In this document: positions 13,189-19,509 of the stretch, piece after piece
Layout of the letters: each line of letters begins with the position of its first letter
Position numbering within the stretch: the stretch's first letter is position 1
Source of the DNA: Candidatus Peribacteria bacterium
Lineage (GTDB): Bacteria > Patescibacteriota > Gracilibacteria > Peribacterales > Peribacteraceae
Assembly: GCA_943350395.1 (NCBI GenBank)
Contig: CALRAD010000001.1
Location: 99,860-133,811, forward strand
DNA length: 33,952 nucleotides
Direction: 5' to 3'
Made by a program: the position numbers and the translations under genes
Notes under the pieces: generated by a model
Seen by the model: only the letters and a program-made list of their open reading frames with translations
Database searches by the model: none
What the model was told of the DNA's origin: nothing

Positions 13189-14007
13189 ATGCGCTCCATC
13201 CGGACACAAATCAGGCTTCTGGCATTTGGCTCACTCCTGAGCATTCCACTCCCCGCAGCGGCGGCCGGAGGAGCGGATATTTCCGTAATGATGCTGAATC
13301 TTGTCACATCGTTTGCGCCCCTCTGGGCCTTCGCTGCAACACTCGTCGTCATCACCGCAGGATTCACTCTGGTCGTCTCCGAAGAGGAAGGAGCACTCGA
13401 CAAAGCGAGGAAGACAATCATGGCAGTGATCGCGGGAGGCATTATCACAACCATCATCATCACGATCGGACCCGTGCAATTCGTGAACAACTTCTTCAAC
13501 GGTGCAACCGGACTCGGCATTCCCGGCACCGTACTGAACACCACTCCTGCAGGAAATCTCGGCATCGAAGCCGAGGGAGTCGCCGGATGGCTTACCGCCA
13601 TTGCCGCGATGATGGGACTCTTCATCATCATCATCGCCGTCATACGCGCGGTGACGAGCTTCGGAGGCGACGAAGCGGCCTACACGAATGTTCGGAATTC
13701 TCTGCTGCAGGTCGTCATCGGACTCATCATCATCGGCGCAGCATTTCTCTTGAAACAGGTGTTCTTTGTGGACCATGAACCGAGCGCACTCATCGCACTG
13801 CTCACGGAAAAAATCGAGATCGTGCTGAAGTTCATCCTCATCATCGCTGTGGGCGTTCTCATCTATGCGGGACTCAGGATGGTCACAAGCTTCGGACGGG
13901 AAGAAGATTATTCTGCTTCAAAATCACTCATTGTCAGAGTCGCCGTCGGCATTCTGGTGATTCTTCTGGCATACAGTCTCGTCGTCATCGTTGCACGAAT
14001 ATTTTGA
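13189..14007 (+). CDS. Exported protein with three tandem VirB2/T4SS-pilin-like hairpins (second of pair)
   Basis: A 272-aa protein built like its upstream neighbour. It has a signal peptide (MRSIRTQIRLLAFGSLLSI..., cleavage after AAA), then three helix-turn-helix membrane hairpins with turns SEEEGALDKARK (about 64-75), SFGGDEAAYTNVRN (about 158-171) and SFGREEDYSASKS (about 233-245). The second and third units share the pattern LRMVTSFG/IRAVTSFG before an acidic turn, so they are related copies. It lies 3 bp after the first gene and is surely co-transcribed. A strong AT-rich inverted repeat follows. Whether it forms a filament or stays in the membrane cannot be told from sequence. Confidence 0.75.
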   Translation: MRSIRTQIRLLAFGSLLSIPLPAAAAGGADISVMMLNLVTSFAPLWAFAATLVVITAGFTLVVSEEEGALDKARKTIMAVIAGGIITTIIITIGPVQFVNNFFNGATGLGIPGTVLNTTPAGNLGIEAEGVAGWLTAIAAMMGLFIIIIAVIRAVTSFGGDEAAYTNVRNSLLQVVIGLIIIGAAFLLKQVFFVDHEPSALIALLTEKIEIVLKFILIIAVGVLIYAGLRMVTSFGREEDYSASKSLIVRVAVGILVILLAYSLVVIVARIF

Positions 14008-14008
14008 A

Positions 14009-14090
14009 AATCCAAAATCCAAATATCAAATTCCAAGCAGCAAGAAAATCAATTGGAATTTGGTTTTTATTTTTTGGAATTTTTTCGGAT
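14009..14090. terminator. Bidirectional AT-rich inverted repeat between convergent genes
   Basis: CAAATTCCAA (14027-14036) and TTGGAATTTG (14053-14062) form a perfect 10-bp stem, flanked by further related AATCC/GGAATT words and T-runs on both sides. It sits between the stop of the pilin-like operon and the end of folP, overlapping the folP stop, and could end transcription from both sides. Confidence 0.55.
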
Positions 14091-14906
14091 CCTCAGCACA
14101 TCCCTCGTCTCTTTCGGGTCGTGAGTTCTGATGAACAGAGCACCGTTTTCGACCGCAAGAATCGACGCGTCCAATGTGGCGGGTAAACGCTTCGACGACG
14201 GAAGATTCTCGGGGCCTGCCAGAAATGATTTCCTCGAAGGACTTACGAGAATCGGACCAAGTCCTTGAAGCTCCGAGAGACGCTCGAGGATCTCGAACGA
14301 ATACGCAGGATCAGACGAAATAAAATGCCCGAGCCCGGGATCGAGGATCATCTGTTCTTTTGCAATACCGTTCTTCAACGCTTGTGCAATGCGCTCTTCC
14401 AAAAACATTCGCACTGTGGCGATCACGTCGTCGTACCGCATGTTCTGCTTCGTCGTTCGCTGCGTCCGATCTTTACTGTACATCATGACGTAGGGACAGC
14501 CGTGACGAGCGATGACGGCAAACATGTTTGGATCACTTCTCCCCGCCGATACATCATTAATCATCACCGCTCCTTGCGTCAGTGCCGCATCGGCAACGTC
14601 TGCCTTCACCGTATCGATTGCTACCAAAGCATCCGGAAAAGAAAGGCGAAGTGCCTTGAGGGCAGGCAGAACTCGTGCCGTCTCGACCTCCGCAGAAACA
14701 TCCTTCGAATCGGGTCCGGTCGATTCTCCTCCAATCTCCAGTATGTCTGCACCTCCTTCGAGAGCTGCTTTGGCATTGGCAAGAAGCATCGACACATCAA
14801 GATTTTTGCCGCCGTCATAGTACGAATCGGGGGTTACATTCAGGATTGCAACAATCCCCGTTCGGGATGCAAGATCAAGCATTTTGGATCCGAAGAAGAA
14901 TTTCAT
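14067..14906 (-). CDS. folP: Dihydropteroate synthase
   Basis: Joins p-aminobenzoate to the pterin diphosphate in folate synthesis. A 279-aa TIM-barrel protein with the family motifs in order: GIVAILNVTPDSYYDGG, ILEIGGESTGP, VMINDVSAG, MILDPGLGHF, SRKSFL and the C-terminal IRTHDPKETRDVL, where most homologues have HDV. The ATG lies 6 nt after a TATACT -10 box that overlaps the divergent promoter of the 55-aa membrane protein. No other folate gene is nearby. Folate genes are often missing in CPR, so its presence is informative. Identity is secure. Confidence 0.95.
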   Translation of the reverse strand: MKFFFGSKMLDLASRTGIVAILNVTPDSYYDGGKNLDVSMLLANAKAALEGGADILEIGGESTGPDSKDVSAEVETARVLPALKALRLSFPDALVAIDTVKADVADAALTQGAVMINDVSAGRSDPNMFAVIARHGCPYVMMYSKDRTQRTTKQNMRYDDVIATVRMFLEERIAQALKNGIAKEQMILDPGLGHFISSDPAYSFEILERLSELQGLGPILVSPSRKSFLAGPENLPSSKRLPATLDASILAVENGALFIRTHDPKETRDVLRIRKNSKK

Positions 14907-15094: not shown

Positions 15095-15673
15095 TTACGC
15101 CACAATCGCTTCCTCGACTTGCCGAATCGTGTCTGCAAGCTTTCCTTCGACATTCCTGATCTGGGTGTCTGTTTCCGATCGAACAGCAAGCTCCATTCGA
15201 ACGCTGTCGATACGCCTCTGTAATTCTTCTTTTTCAATCGGTGCGCGTTTCGTGATGTGACTAATGAGTTGTTCTTCACTCTCTGGAAGAATAAAAATTG
15301 TGTTCAATGTATAATTCTTGTCTGAGCCAAAATACGGTGAGCGACGAATATTTTGAAATCCCTGCACATCGACTTCCCGAATGACGGTCTTCCCCTGCTT
15401 AATCGCAGGAATAATTTCGTTTAAGAGCGTGCCATACCGCGCACCTTTATGAACCTGCGCCCATTCGAGAAATTTATCTTCCCTGCACCACTGCGAAAAT
15501 TCAACTTCCGAAACAAAGTGATAGAGATCCTCGCCTTCACCCTCCCGACGAGCTCTCGTCGTTGCTGAGCGGGGGAAAACGTACTCGGGGTGATTCATCT
15601 TCAGCGCCTTCAAAATGACACTTTTCCCGACACCGCTGGGACCGATGAGGAGAACGAGTTTGCCTTGTTGCAT
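15095..15673 (-). CDS. gmk: Guanylate kinase-like protein
   Basis: Phosphorylates GMP to GDP. The P-loop GPSGVGKSVI is at residues 11-20 of the chosen start (MQQGKLVLLIGPSGVGKS), followed by the GMP-binding region SATTRARREGEGEDLYHFVS (the family has TTRxPRxGExxGxDYxFV), the helix FLEWAQVHKGARYGT and the GKTVIREVDVQG strand. It has 192 aa. The longer frame back to 15883 would add 70 residues unlike the family, so the ATG at 15673 is preferred. A TACCAT hexamer lies 8 nt before it. The usual GMP-contact residues are mostly recognisable but several differ from standard Gmk (EGEGEDLYHF), so a related nucleotide kinase is possible. Confidence 0.82.
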   Translation of the reverse strand: MQQGKLVLLIGPSGVGKSVILKALKMNHPEYVFPRSATTRARREGEGEDLYHFVSEVEFSQWCREDKFLEWAQVHKGARYGTLLNEIIPAIKQGKTVIREVDVQGFQNIRRSPYFGSDKNYTLNTIFILPESEEQLISHITKRAPIEKEELQRRIDSVRMELAVRSETDTQIRNVEGKLADTIRQVEEAIVA

Positions 15674-15704: not shown

Positions 15705-15733
15705 TTGCCCAAACTCCAAAAAAGATGTATACT
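15705..15733 (+). promoter_or_regulatory. Promoter of the structured RNA
   Basis: TTGCCC (15705-15710) and TATACT (15728-15733) with a 17-bp spacer. A start seven bases after the -10 falls on A15740. There is no start codon near it and no plausible gene downstream, so this promoter appears to serve a non-coding RNA. Confidence 0.7.
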
Positions 15734-15739
15734 GATTGG

Positions 15740-16087
15740 ATTTGCTCTTTTACATCTCCCGACACCAAAAGGATCGAAAACGTAGGGAGAGAGATGGGAC
15801 ACCCTATCTCCCTCCCTGCTCTTCGATCCAAATGACCGAAGAGTTCCCTCCTCCAAAATCGAGGAGGGACCTACAAAACACAAACATACGGCAACCTGCA
15901 GGCCTCACATGCAGGAGCGATTCCCGACTCCTCGGGATACAACAAAAACACATAACGGAGCGGCTCCCGCTTAGGGTCGCAAAGAGGTGTAGGGAGCAGA
16001 GAGCGCCTGGTCGACGTTCTCTACGCTCAATATCTCCTTACCGAGATTTGAGTTCAATACGGGCACTCCTTCGGGGGTGCCCGTTTT
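15740..16087 (+). ncRNA. Unidentified structured RNA of about 345 nt
   Basis: A stretch without a credible gene, bounded by a good promoter and an intrinsic terminator, and packed with stable stems. Stems seen: 15771-15778 with 15822-15829; inside it 15782-15789 with 15812-15819 and 15791-15798 with 15802-15810; 15845-15853 with 15861-15869 (9 bp); 15895-15900 with 15910-15915; 15922-15927 with 15932-15937; 15959-15963 with 15967-15971; 15994-16005 with 16015-16028 (three blocks); 16032-16036 with 16043-16047. It lacks the AGGAAAGTCC core of RNase P RNA, the tRNA-like ends of tmRNA and the conserved tip of SRP RNA. The open frame on this strand (15736-16188) has an unlikely amino acid make-up. 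It is not a leader: the next plus-strand gene has its own promoter beyond a minus-strand gene. Confidence 0.6.
16059..16087 (+). terminator. Intrinsic terminator of the structured RNA
   Basis: An 11-bp stem (16059-16069 with 16074-16084) closed by a C(TTCG)G tetraloop and followed by TTTT. It lies just before the end of the convergent gene at 16089. Confidence 0.85.
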
Positions 16088-16088
16088 A

Positions 16089-17162
16089 TTATTCCCAATT
16101 GAAATTCTTCGGATCGAGAAGCGGAACGAACGTCGCAAACCATTTTCCTTTCACCAGAAAGGCCGCCTTCATCGCGGGCACCAGATAGGTCGGAGCAAGC
16201 TCGTCTTGAGGCATCAGCAGATAGACGATCCTCACGTCCCCGTAGGTAATGCTGTCACCTTCCGGATCTTTCGGCATGGGCAGGAGTCCGCCGCTTCGAA
16301 GCTTCTTCTCCAAAATTTCTCGGGGTAGCGTCGGATAGTCTGACGCTGCAAGAACATCGGGGGAGAGAAGCGAAATCGACGCACTGATCGCACGGTGCGA
16401 CACGCGACCAATCTGCATCGTGAGGGATGGAACCGGAGTGCCGTCCGGTCCGTACACGGGGAAAGATCCGATCGACATCGGCCAGACCACAAACGTCCTC
16501 TTTGGCTGGGTCGCTGTCTGGGGAGACTCGGTGATGTAGGGTGTTCCGAGAGGCGCCAAATCAATATTGAGACTCGCCGCAAACGTTCTTGCAAGTGCCA
16601 TTACTTCGTTGTCATCAGCCCTCTCCAAAGAAGGCGTGGTCTGTGGAATGAGTGTGCGCAGGATCGTCAGTGAGCGTGTCGGCAGTGAGAGACTCATCTT
16701 GAGTGTTCCGTCCGCGGATCGAAACGAATAGATATCGGGGAACAATTGCATTGTCACGGGATCAATCGGCGCATGCATAGAAGTAAACAATGCACCAAAC
16801 GATGGTCCGTCGAATGCGATCTCCTGATCGCGGTAGAGCGGCAGGGCTTTTGGAAATTCCGGCACAATCGCAGTGGGAAGAACGTACTCCCGTACACCCG
16901 TCATGCTACCGGTTCCGTCCAACACTCTGGAGGGAAACGACACCGAACGAACGATGTCGCCAAACGCCATAGGTCCCGAAGAAGTGGCAGAAGAAGACCA
17001 AGAAGATACGGAGGAGGACATTGCCTCTCCGGAAGAAGAAACTGCATTTCGTGTGACCAAAAGAAATGTGTTCACTGCAAAAGACAGAAGCAAAACAAAG
17101 ACCGTGGCAGGAACGACCATGCGGGACAGAAACGACGGTTGAGAAGGTGCGAAAATTCCCAT
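16089..17162 (-). CDS. Membrane-anchored exported protein, unknown
   Basis: A 357-aa protein with one N-terminal membrane helix (about 15-37) and a Ser-rich stretch (about 41-62), followed by a long extracytoplasmic part. Readable blocks include REYVLPTAIVPEFPKALPLY, FGALFTSMHAPIDPVTMQLF and, near the end, YLVPAMKAAFLVKGKWFATF. I recognise no family; the tone is that of a beta-rich envelope protein, perhaps substrate- or wall-binding. The start lies 6-8 nt after overlapping -10 hexamers that also serve the divergent SLH gene. Ser-rich spacers of the same type occur in two other envelope proteins in this window. Confidence 0.7.
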   Translation of the reverse strand: MGIFAPSQPSFLSRMVVPATVFVLLLSFAVNTFLLVTRNAVSSSGEAMSSSVSSWSSSATSSGPMAFGDIVRSVSFPSRVLDGTGSMTGVREYVLPTAIVPEFPKALPLYRDQEIAFDGPSFGALFTSMHAPIDPVTMQLFPDIYSFRSADGTLKMSLSLPTRSLTILRTLIPQTTPSLERADDNEVMALARTFAASLNIDLAPLGTPYITESPQTATQPKRTFVVWPMSIGSFPVYGPDGTPVPSLTMQIGRVSHRAISASISLLSPDVLAASDYPTLPREILEKKLRSGGLLPMPKDPEGDSITYGDVRIVYLLMPQDELAPTYLVPAMKAAFLVKGKWFATFVPLLDPKNFNWE

Positions 17163-17168
17163 GCCACG

Positions 17169-17176
17169 ATACTATA
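17169..17176. promoter_or_regulatory. Overlapping divergent -10 boxes
   Basis: ATACTATA gives TACTAT on the plus strand (17170-17175), 6 nt before ATG 17182, and TAGTAT on the minus strand (17174-17169), 6 nt before ATG 17162. Both genes would be leaderless. This repeats the layout at 14913-14920. Confidence 0.5.
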
Positions 17177-17181
17177 CAGGT

Positions 17182-19509
17182 ATGACGAGTTTGAGAACCA
17201 CCGCTCTCGTACTGACAGTGTGCATGTTCTTTGAAGTTGCTCCCTCTGTGCACGCATTGTTCATCGATGTCGCAGAGAGATCGGAACGAGAAGCAATCGA
17301 AGAACTGAAAAACCGAGGCGTGATCGAAGGCTACCGCGACGGCACGTTTCGGCCCGATGCACCGATCAATCGAGCAGAATTTCTGAAAATTTTGATCGAG
17401 AGCAGATTCCAACATCATCTCCCCGCCGATCTACGTTGCTTTCGCGATCTGGAAGTGAAAACTCCTCAATGGTACGCGCGTGCCGTCTGTTCGGCTCGGG
17501 AGCTCGGAGTCGTTGCCGGATATCCGGACGGCTTCTTTCGGCCCGATCGCACGGTGAATCTTGCGGAGGCGCTGAAAATGGCTCTAGGGTCATTCGGCAT
17601 TTTCCCCAAAGTGGAGACGAGCGAGGCATGGTATGAAGCATTGCTGACGGAAGCGAGAAACCGAAACATTCTCGTGTCACTGCTCAAAAATCCTTCACAT
17701 CTTCTGACGCGCGGAGAGATGGCGACACTCACCTACGCGCTCGTCCTCGCAGCGGAAGAACCGAATGAGGATTCCAAAGATGTCGCCGGAGTCTGCGGCA
17801 ACGGCATCGAAGAGACTCCCGAGCAATGCGATGACGGTAACGTCAAAGACAGCGACGGTTGCAGCTCGATCTGCATTCTCGTTCCCGAGCCCGTGTTTCG
17901 AGCCATCGTCCAAATCGATGCGCAAGCAACCGGTACGGTTACGACGATCGCACAAGGCCAGCGTCACGTGACGCTGCTGAAGTTCAATGCGGTCTCCGGC
18001 AGACAAGATGCACTCCTCACCTCGCTCACCTTCTCACCCTCCGTCGGCTTGCTGGTATTCGGCCAACACTACACGCTCCTGATGGACAGAGACGGCACGG
18101 GAAATTTTGCCGAGGTGGTGCAGGCAAACGGCAAAACTGACGGCACTCACCTCGTCTTCGATCAATTGAAAAACGGCGGCATTCTCATTCCCAAGGGTCT
18201 CAGTATTTCGTTCGCTCTCACCGCCGATCTCGTCTCTACACTCGGACCCGTGTCACTCGGTGTGAACTTTGCGACGGATCTCCCCGATTACGTGCAGGCA
18301 CAAGGCGCAGTTGACGGCATTCCGCTCACCGGCATCGAAACAAACAACGCCTGCATCAGCGCCGATTGCTTCATCCGAGTCAATACGCAAGCAACAACTG
18401 ACATCAACGTCGTGGAGAGAGGATCGCTCTTTGTCACGGAAGACCCGATCCCAGCCCAAAGCCATATTCTGGTCGGCGGCACACTGTCTCCCGCACTCCT
18501 TCGACTCAGGATGCATGCAGTGTCCGAAGCGATCGATCTACGGGAACTTCGGATCGACGGCGTTCCGAACAATGTCGATTCCCTGTTGCTGTATAGACTT
18601 GAGAAGGGAGCAAACCCGAATCTCATCACTCAAACTCCGTTCGCGCAGGCAAGCAACGGTCAATGTTCAAGCCAGTCCGCAAGCAGGCTCTGTGCAATCC
18701 TTGGACTGTCAACACTCGTCATCAAGGAGAATGAGGACATCGTTATCGCTGTCGCAGCACGTATGAAATCCGATCAGGTCGGCGGAGTGAGCGGACAGAA
18801 TCTGTCGCTGTCGATCGCAGGCGCAACGGATGACGCGGGACTTGCAATCCGTGCACGTGGGATTTCTTCGAATCAAGATTTGACGCAGAACAACGGAGAC
18901 AGCAGCGCAATTGGCGAAGTGATTATCGGCAGCAGTGTGCCGAAAGCAAACACTCAAATCACAGGACGCACGTTCGATTCGGCACTCGCAAGCATCGGCG
19001 CGATTGCGAATGCCGGCAGCGTAAGCAGTACGGTCATCCCGAGCGGCAATGCCGTCATCGGATCTTTTCGGATCGATGCACTCGCACACACCAATTCCAA
19101 GAGCGGTCTCAATGATGTCGTCCTGCAGACACTCACGTTCCATGTCAGCGCCCGAAATGTGCAACTTGATCCTGCCGGATACAGACTCTCCGCCTCCGAT
19201 GATGCAAGTCTTGAACATTCGTGCTCAGCTGCAGGCACCACAGGAGATATCACCGTGACGTGCGCTGGTCTCGGAAACGGTGCAATCCGCAATCGTATCG
19301 GACAGGGGCAATTCGCGATCTTTTCTCTCAAGGCAAACGTGACGAATACACAGATCACGCAGGGCAGCAGCTCACTTCAAATCGAACTTCCGACACTCGG
19401 CACGAGAGCGGAAACAAACTCTGTGATCTGGAGCGACGAAGACACTGTATTCACATGGGTCGATATTCCGGTCTCCGGAGTCTCCTCCACTCTGTACCGC
19501 ACGCAATAA
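17182..19509 (+). CDS. SLH-domain surface protein with Cys-rich repeat
   Basis: A 775-aa exported protein. I chose ATG 17182 rather than 17161 because it gives a clean signal peptide (MTSLRTTALVLTVCMFFEVA, cleavage after VHA) and lies 6 nt after a -10 box. Three S-layer-homology units follow (about 27-72, 86-135, 145-190; for example GVIEGYRDGTFRPDAPINRA and GVVAGYPDGFFRPDRTVNLA), which normally bind secondary cell-wall polymers. Next is one Cys-rich repeat (CGNGIEETPEQCDDGN, about 205-232) of the DUF4215/Myxo-disulfide type. The remaining 540 residues are beta-rich, with repeated Thr/Ser/Ala-rich strands. It is 1 bp upstream of the DUF2238-like gene. An S-layer-like or adhesin role is inferred. 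Confidence 0.85.
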   Translation: MTSLRTTALVLTVCMFFEVAPSVHALFIDVAERSEREAIEELKNRGVIEGYRDGTFRPDAPINRAEFLKILIESRFQHHLPADLRCFRDLEVKTPQWYARAVCSARELGVVAGYPDGFFRPDRTVNLAEALKMALGSFGIFPKVETSEAWYEALLTEARNRNILVSLLKNPSHLLTRGEMATLTYALVLAAEEPNEDSKDVAGVCGNGIEETPEQCDDGNVKDSDGCSSICILVPEPVFRAIVQIDAQATGTVTTIAQGQRHVTLLKFNAVSGRQDALLTSLTFSPSVGLLVFGQHYTLLMDRDGTGNFAEVVQANGKTDGTHLVFDQLKNGGILIPKGLSISFALTADLVSTLGPVSLGVNFATDLPDYVQAQGAVDGIPLTGIETNNACISADCFIRVNTQATTDINVVERGSLFVTEDPIPAQSHILVGGTLSPALLRLRMHAVSEAIDLRELRIDGVPNNVDSLLLYRLEKGANPNLITQTPFAQASNGQCSSQSASRLCAILGLSTLVIKENEDIVIAVAARMKSDQVGGVSGQNLSLSIAGATDDAGLAIRARGISSNQDLTQNNGDSSAIGEVIIGSSVPKANTQITGRTFDSALASIGAIANAGSVSSTVIPSGNAVIGSFRIDALAHTNSKSGLNDVVLQTLTFHVSARNVQLDPAGYRLSASDDASLEHSCSAAGTTGDITVTCAGLGNGAIRNRIGQGQFAIFSLKANVTNTQITQGSSSLQIELPTLGTRAETNSVIWSDEDTVFTWVDIPVSGVSSTLYRTQ

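Follow-up and report, generated by a model that had tools for sequence, protein, structure and literature searches.

The RNA locus

The window, a stretch of 33,952 nucleotides from a member of Candidatus Peribacteria, carries on its top strand the predicted gene of a structured non-coding RNA (Table 1). It lies between the divergent guanylate kinase gene gmk on its 5′ side and a gene on its 3′ side that is convergent to it and encodes a 357-aa protein without a Pfam match. This arrangement agrees with the statement of an earlier note that the RNA is not a leader: with the gene on one side convergent and gmk on the other divergent, neither a leader nor a riboswitch fits, and both were rejected. 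The long open reading frame that spans the RNA gene (15736-16188) continues past the terminator. A Pfam search of the open reading frames across the interval 15705-16088 gave no match and, when the closest relatives were compared, no single frame was open throughout the RNA region. A protein gene at the locus was rejected on these grounds, and the note was right to see no credible gene in the interval.

The predicted transcript folds with -153.5 kcal/mol compared with -99 ± 4.7 kcal/mol for dinucleotide shuffles (z = -11.7). The strength of the fold bears out the stable stems described previously; that earlier fold was nevertheless incomplete, as neither a kissing loop nor the pseudoknot in P7 was part of it, and the boxA-like element had been overlooked. 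The promoter with 17-bp spacing and the 11-bp, UUCG-capped terminator hairpin (16059-16084) are both present as described.

Table 1. Predicted RNA gene, its elements and its divergent neighbour (positions in the window)
Feature	Position	Strand	Remarks
gmk (guanylate kinase), divergent neighbour	15098..15673	-	Pfam PF00625, E 7e-28
Sigma-70-type promoter (putative), -35 TTGCCC, 17-bp spacer, -10 TATACT	15705..15733	+	-10 at equal distance from boxA in 43/48 family homologues
Structured non-coding RNA gene (predicted)	15740..16086	+	about 345-347 nt; start and end as predicted
boxA-like element UGCUCUUUUACA, 5′ end of RNA	15743..15754	+	11/12 match to UGCUCUUUAACA; fixed position after -10 in homologues
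P1, 5′ strand CUCCCGACACC, closing helix	15756..15766	+	pairs with 15986-15996; supported in the window's clade and the Peribacter clade
P2, 5′ strand GUAGGGAGAGAGAU	15782..15795	+	fold; long covarying helix in the Peribacter clade
P2, 3′ strand AUCUCCCUCCCUGC	15806..15819	+	covariation; model-free alignment
P3 hairpin, loop with GACC 15834-15837 (half of predicted kissing interaction)	15819..15843	+	covariation; loop tests
P4 hairpin	15845..15869	+	covariation
A/C-rich unpaired linker 1, ACAAAACACAAACAUA	15873..15888	+	conserved
P5 hairpin	15895..15915	+	6/6 pairs doubly changed; recovered without model
P6 hairpin (AUUCCCGA..UCGGGAU)	15920..15938	+	covariation; model-free alignment
A/C-rich unpaired linker 2, ACAACAAAAACACAUAA	15939..15955	+	conserved
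P7, H-type pseudoknot	15956..15980	+	pseudoknot scoring; covariation
P1, 3′ strand GGUGUAGGGAG	15986..15996	+	covariation; model-free alignment
P8 hairpin, loop CCUGGUCGA 16006-16014	15999..16021	+	7/7 pairs doubly changed; loop tests
P9 hairpin, clade-specific	16026..16052	+	fold
Intrinsic terminator, 11-bp stem, UUCG loop, U tract	16059..16086	+	helix also recovered in the Peribacter clade

Promoter, boxA-like element and terminator

Scored by consensus alone, neither signal stands out from chance: one promoter was found in 2.2 kb against 1.5 expected, and three terminators against 2.3 expected. Both signals are supported by conservation, as homologues repeat the combination of a -10 box and, at a fixed distance behind it, a boxA-like element. 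The distance from the -10 box to the start of this element is 8-9 nt in 43 of the 48 family homologues and in 8 of 24 homologues from outer families, where a clear boxA is rarer; these counts are somewhat generous, as the degenerate boxA consensus was widened after the sequences had been inspected. Shuffled controls gave the same spacing in 1.9 of 72 cases.

The boxA consensus of bacterial rRNA is UGCUCUUUAACA. As an independent check we looked at 16S rRNA leaders of the family, which carry boxA-like elements of the same type (AGCUCCUUCACA, UGCUCAUUCACA and AGCUCUUUCACA). In these leaders (L170 and others) a conserved GCATCGTG comes after the boxA-like element and may be an extension specific to the lineage. 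BoxA has also been reported upstream of CRISPR arrays, and GTTCTTTAAAA is quoted as the boxA of a CRISPR leader (PMC7862264). BoxA recruits NusB-NusE and keeps Rho from terminating long untranslated transcripts (PMC4807359), and antitermination is its known role in long non-coding transcripts (PMC4807359, PMC7862264). As the 5′ boxA-like element of the RNA follows the -10 box and the family's rRNA leaders have similar elements, transcription of the RNA most likely proceeds as for rRNA, with boxA-mediated antitermination. The idea that the 5′ leader pairs with the ACAAA linkers, suggested by the sequence, was rejected because such a pairing is not conserved.

Secondary structure and covariation

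From the 5′ end, the core consists of P1, P2, P3 (GACC loop), P4, an A/C-rich linker (ACAAACACA), P5, P6, a second linker and P7; these are followed by the 3′ strand of P1, P8 (loop ..UGGUC..), the clade-specific P9 and the terminator. In P7, CGG 15956-15958 is predicted to pair with CCG 15967-15969, and GCGGCUC 15960-15966 with GGGUCGC 15974-15980. GGUC 16009-16012 in the loop of P8 would pair with the loop of P3.

When 24 sequences were aligned to the covariance model R1, 35 of the 48 pairs were changed on both sides, in an alignment that leans towards the model structure, as do some other alignments that were likewise fitted to a model. The doubly changed cells numbered 200, compared with 55 in shuffles and 20-66 with slid partners. 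An alignment free of the model, made with MAFFT from six RNAs of the Peribacter clade, none of them used for R1, recovered P1, P2 (about 20 pairs), P5, P6, one stem of P7, P8 and the terminator. Judged by these comparisons, the RNA is a structured non-coding RNA with helices that covary beyond the controls.

The interaction between the P3 and P8 loops was examined separately. An earlier test with automatic loop detection gave a modest signal only and was replaced by a test anchored on GUC/GAC and by one on homologues from outside the class. In the anchored test, loops paired with their own partners formed on average 4.58 pairs against 3.77 ± 0.14 with permuted partners, and none of 2000 permutations reached as high a value. 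Loop pairs within the class include UGGUCA/UGACCA, UAGUCG/CGACUA, CGGUCGG/CCGACCG and GAGUCGA/UCGACUC. Outside the class, seven homologues belonging to three families can each form 6-9 perfect pairs between the two loops (mean 7.1 pairs, against at most 5.4 in 500 shuffles), with unrelated loop sequences: GGUUAGA/UCUAACC, GACUAGA/UCUAGUC, GAUUGGAA/UUCCAAUC and CGACUUAAU/AUUAAGUCG. The predicted P3-P8 kissing interaction is kept across the phylum with unrelated sequences. For P7, shuffles of the same stretch served as the control: the H-type pseudoknot reached p ≤ 0.05 in 73% of the 67 homologues scored, and its stems have many different sequences; the score is that of the best of many possible pairings, and its loop limits miss some members.

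Homologues and gene neighbourhood

Searching with plain DNA brought up relatives from the same genus and from three further genera. With covariance models, whose E-values are rough, the range was wider. The core model R1 matched in 48 of 353 genomes of the class and R2, which includes the closing helix, in 83 of 353, essentially as a single copy. In the Peribacteraceae-like family of the window R2 matched in 58 of 74 genomes; in the other 16 an incomplete assembly and a divergent copy are indistinguishable. For a third model, R3, 380 genomes were sampled evenly across the phylum, and 35 of them matched. Weak second matches in five genomes (G004, G012, G082, G084 and G085) may be false or may stem from paralogous fragments.

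Scanning 84,980 named species genomes for a pattern gave matches in 18 contigs, which are labelled Peribacteria, Peribacteraceae, Peribacter or Peregrinibacteria, with one labelled only Patescibacteria. A search with the exact motif GCGCCTGGTCGACG also matched two coding regions (L008 and L016), which were rejected as homologues by their context. The statistics exclude five doubtful loci (L061, L147, L148, L150 and L151), and some of them also exclude L149.

Other classes of Patescibacteria have weaker but convincing homologues, in at least three families. Their homology is indicated by E-values of 5e-6 to 2e-3 together with shared motifs and the kissing loops. Read by eye, they share the A-rich CAAAAACAAAAA linkers and a ACCAUAAGAACAGUG-like segment, and the strands of their P1 are wholly different in sequence yet complementary. 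The weak phylum matches L203, L209 and L217-L221 are without the shared motifs and were not counted.

The suggestion that homologues should be sought next to gmk proved fruitful. Of 81 class loci, 71 have gmk in the fetched flanks, mostly 70-420 bp away and nearly always divergent and on the 5′ side. For weak matches in other families of the class it was found in the flanks of 18 of 20 loci, the remaining two being at contig ends; these homologues are independently validated, because the adjacency of gmk had not been used in finding them. In two genera gmk is located on the 3′ side and on the same strand (about 136 bp away in L057 and about 83 bp in L086), and in four loci (L084, L122, L126 and L158) it lies 0.7-2.1 kb from the RNA. 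It was not found within the fetched flanks of homologues from other classes. Within the class the RNA is inherited vertically beside gmk. Further from the RNA, the window encodes a type IV secretion pilin (13189-14007), dihydropteroate synthase (14067-14906) and a 782-aa protein with S-layer homology domains (17161-19509).

Comparison with known RNA families

The 4227 models of Rfam 15, the check proposed in the earlier note, gave nothing at gathering level over the RNA when the window was searched, and nothing credible at E-values up to 10. This includes the raiA motif, OLE, ROOL and GOLLD as well as all the other models. The same search of 20 class loci and eight loci of other classes detected no family other than neighbouring tRNAs. 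The note had also found the RNA to be without the signatures of RNase P RNA, tmRNA and SRP RNA, in line with the lack of an Rfam match at the locus and with the presence of the first two elsewhere in the genome: RNase P RNA (RF00010) at G000:C16:18425-18778 with 158.9 bits and tmRNA (RF00023) at G000:C1:193809-194204 with 99 bits, both above their cut-offs. The only match to 6S RNA (RF00013) is likewise elsewhere, at G000:C4:16633-16787 (L088), with 40 bits compared with a cut-off of 46.4.

SRP RNA (RF00169) was not found in any of the 74 family genomes by a search that detected it in 12 of 14 controls. The M domain of Ffh (PF02978) was similarly undetected in 74 of 74 family genomes and detected in 14 of 14 controls. 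As neither was found in the family, the RNA cannot be an SRP RNA that works with its usual partner, and the idea that it replaces SRP RNA through Ffh was dropped. From these searches the whole family seems to lack a signal recognition particle.

A literature search, which covered papers available without subscription, found no description of the RNA, and one may exist elsewhere. On the evidence of the models, the RNA belongs to no described family and is a new one; if large bacterial non-coding RNAs of unknown role are regarded as one category, it adds a new family to that category. The proposal of an undescribed structured RNA has therefore stood, with no Rfam match, strongly covarying stems (the doubly changed pairs reported above answer the covariation check that had been suggested) and homologues beside gmk.

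Discussion

The comparisons establish, as features predicted from sequence, a promoter region, a terminator, the P1-P8 core, the P7 pseudoknot, the P3-P8 kissing interaction and two A/C-rich linkers. The locus is probably the gene of a previously undescribed, independently transcribed structured RNA of the CPR (Patescibacteria) that acts in trans. Most likely this is a stable housekeeping RNA transcribed like rRNA. That it is single-copy, deeply conserved and equipped with an rRNA-type leader suits the view of it as a major housekeeping or regulatory RNA. The boxA-like element at the 5′ end would recruit NusB-S10 (NusE), RNA polymerase would then transcribe the RNA in an antiterminated and folding-assisted manner, as for rRNA, and the finished RNA would be stable and abundant. 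It may act in trans as a ribonucleoprotein scaffold or as a regulator, with the A/C-rich linkers as likely contact sites for its partner.

The adjacency of gmk could count against this explanation, as a hint of a local role in cis. An RNA that regulates the divergent gmk (GMP to GDP), for instance through overlapping divergent promoters or an effect of transcription, would be consistent with gmk adjoining in most of the 81 loci, from about 12 families, and with its remaining adjacent even where it is flipped to the 3′ side (L057 and L086). However, the fold is far too elaborate and conserved for promoter interference, gmk is distant in four loci and was not found in the flanks outside the class, and slow change of gene order suffices to explain the adjacency because other syntenic genes are conserved too. 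We consider a local regulator unlikely. An improbable role of the same order is that of a decoy or sensor which binds NusB-S10 or RNA polymerase and adjusts rRNA synthesis, comparable to 6S RNA. It would account for a boxA that lies within the first nucleotides of the RNA, is among the most conserved parts in the family and resembles the boxA of rRNA leaders. Against it, boxA is weaker in the outer families though the core persists, and antitermination of the RNA's own transcription is the simpler reading (PMC4807359, PMC7862264).

In its compactness the RNA, with an H-type pseudoknot, kissing loops and invariant segments in the core, is reminiscent of catalytic RNAs, and the pseudoknotted core might catalyse RNA cleavage or another reaction. 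A ribozyme is nevertheless quite unlikely, given that there is no recognisable catalytic core or match to a ribozyme in Rfam and that conservation is spread across helices and A-rich linkers and not confined to a small invariant active site. That the locus is a translated gene, or a known housekeeping RNA (RNase P, tmRNA, SRP or 6S) in divergent form, is very improbable. The size and single copy would suit a housekeeping RNA, and SRP RNA is otherwise missing in the family; but RNase P RNA, tmRNA and a 6S-like RNA are all encoded elsewhere in the genome, the undetected Ffh M domain in all 74 genomes speaks against SRP, and no reading frame is open across relatives or has a Pfam match.

A trans-acting housekeeping RNA can be compared with several known systems. 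Like 6S RNA it would be a single-copy stable bacterial RNA; 6S RNA is a long rod with a central bulge, whereas the CPR RNA has a multi-helix core. The closest functional comparison would be ModT, the raiA-motif RNA of Bacillota and Actinomycetota, which is also large and conserved, has its own transcript and an elaborate fold, and likely acts in trans as an abundant RNA (PMC11706538). The abundance and stability of ModT in exponential growth rival those of rRNA (PMC11706538). It differs from the CPR RNA in host phylum, neighbouring gene, motifs and layout, a boxA leader having been noted in the CPR RNA. Structurally closest are OLE, ROOL and GOLLD (PMC12286853), other large non-ribosomal RNAs with many helices and kissing loops; compared with these the CPR RNA is shorter, vertically inherited and essentially single-copy. 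No relation in sequence or by model was found between it and any of these four RNAs. With the boxA-containing leaders of rRNA operons, which bind NusB-S10 (PMC4807359), it shares a sigma-70-type promoter, a boxA and a long structured non-coding transcript. It differs from them in the position of boxA, at the extreme 5′ end, and in its product, which is not rRNA; dependence on Nus factors is presumed.

A more tentative and on balance doubtful extension is that this is a CPR-wide housekeeping RNA, which uses the rRNA antitermination machinery and serves a core task such as ribosome assembly or translation in reduced genomes. It would so far have gone unrecognised because it diverges too fast for sequence search, and some of those reduced genomes seem to be without the whole SRP pathway. 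The CPR make up a large share of bacterial diversity, are mostly uncultivated and have few known non-coding RNAs beyond the universal ones. A pseudoknotted RNA conserved in a class, with an rRNA-type boxA leader and relatives in other classes, points to an unknown RNA machine or regulator. The alignments and covariance models allow its immediate annotation by others and checks of existing metatranscriptomes.

Within the RNA, CUCCCUGC (15812-15819) has two complementary partners, the GUAGGGAG of P2 and the GUAGGGAG of P1 (15989-15996). Alternative pairing with the two GUAGGGAG segments is possibly a two-state switch, or a by-product.
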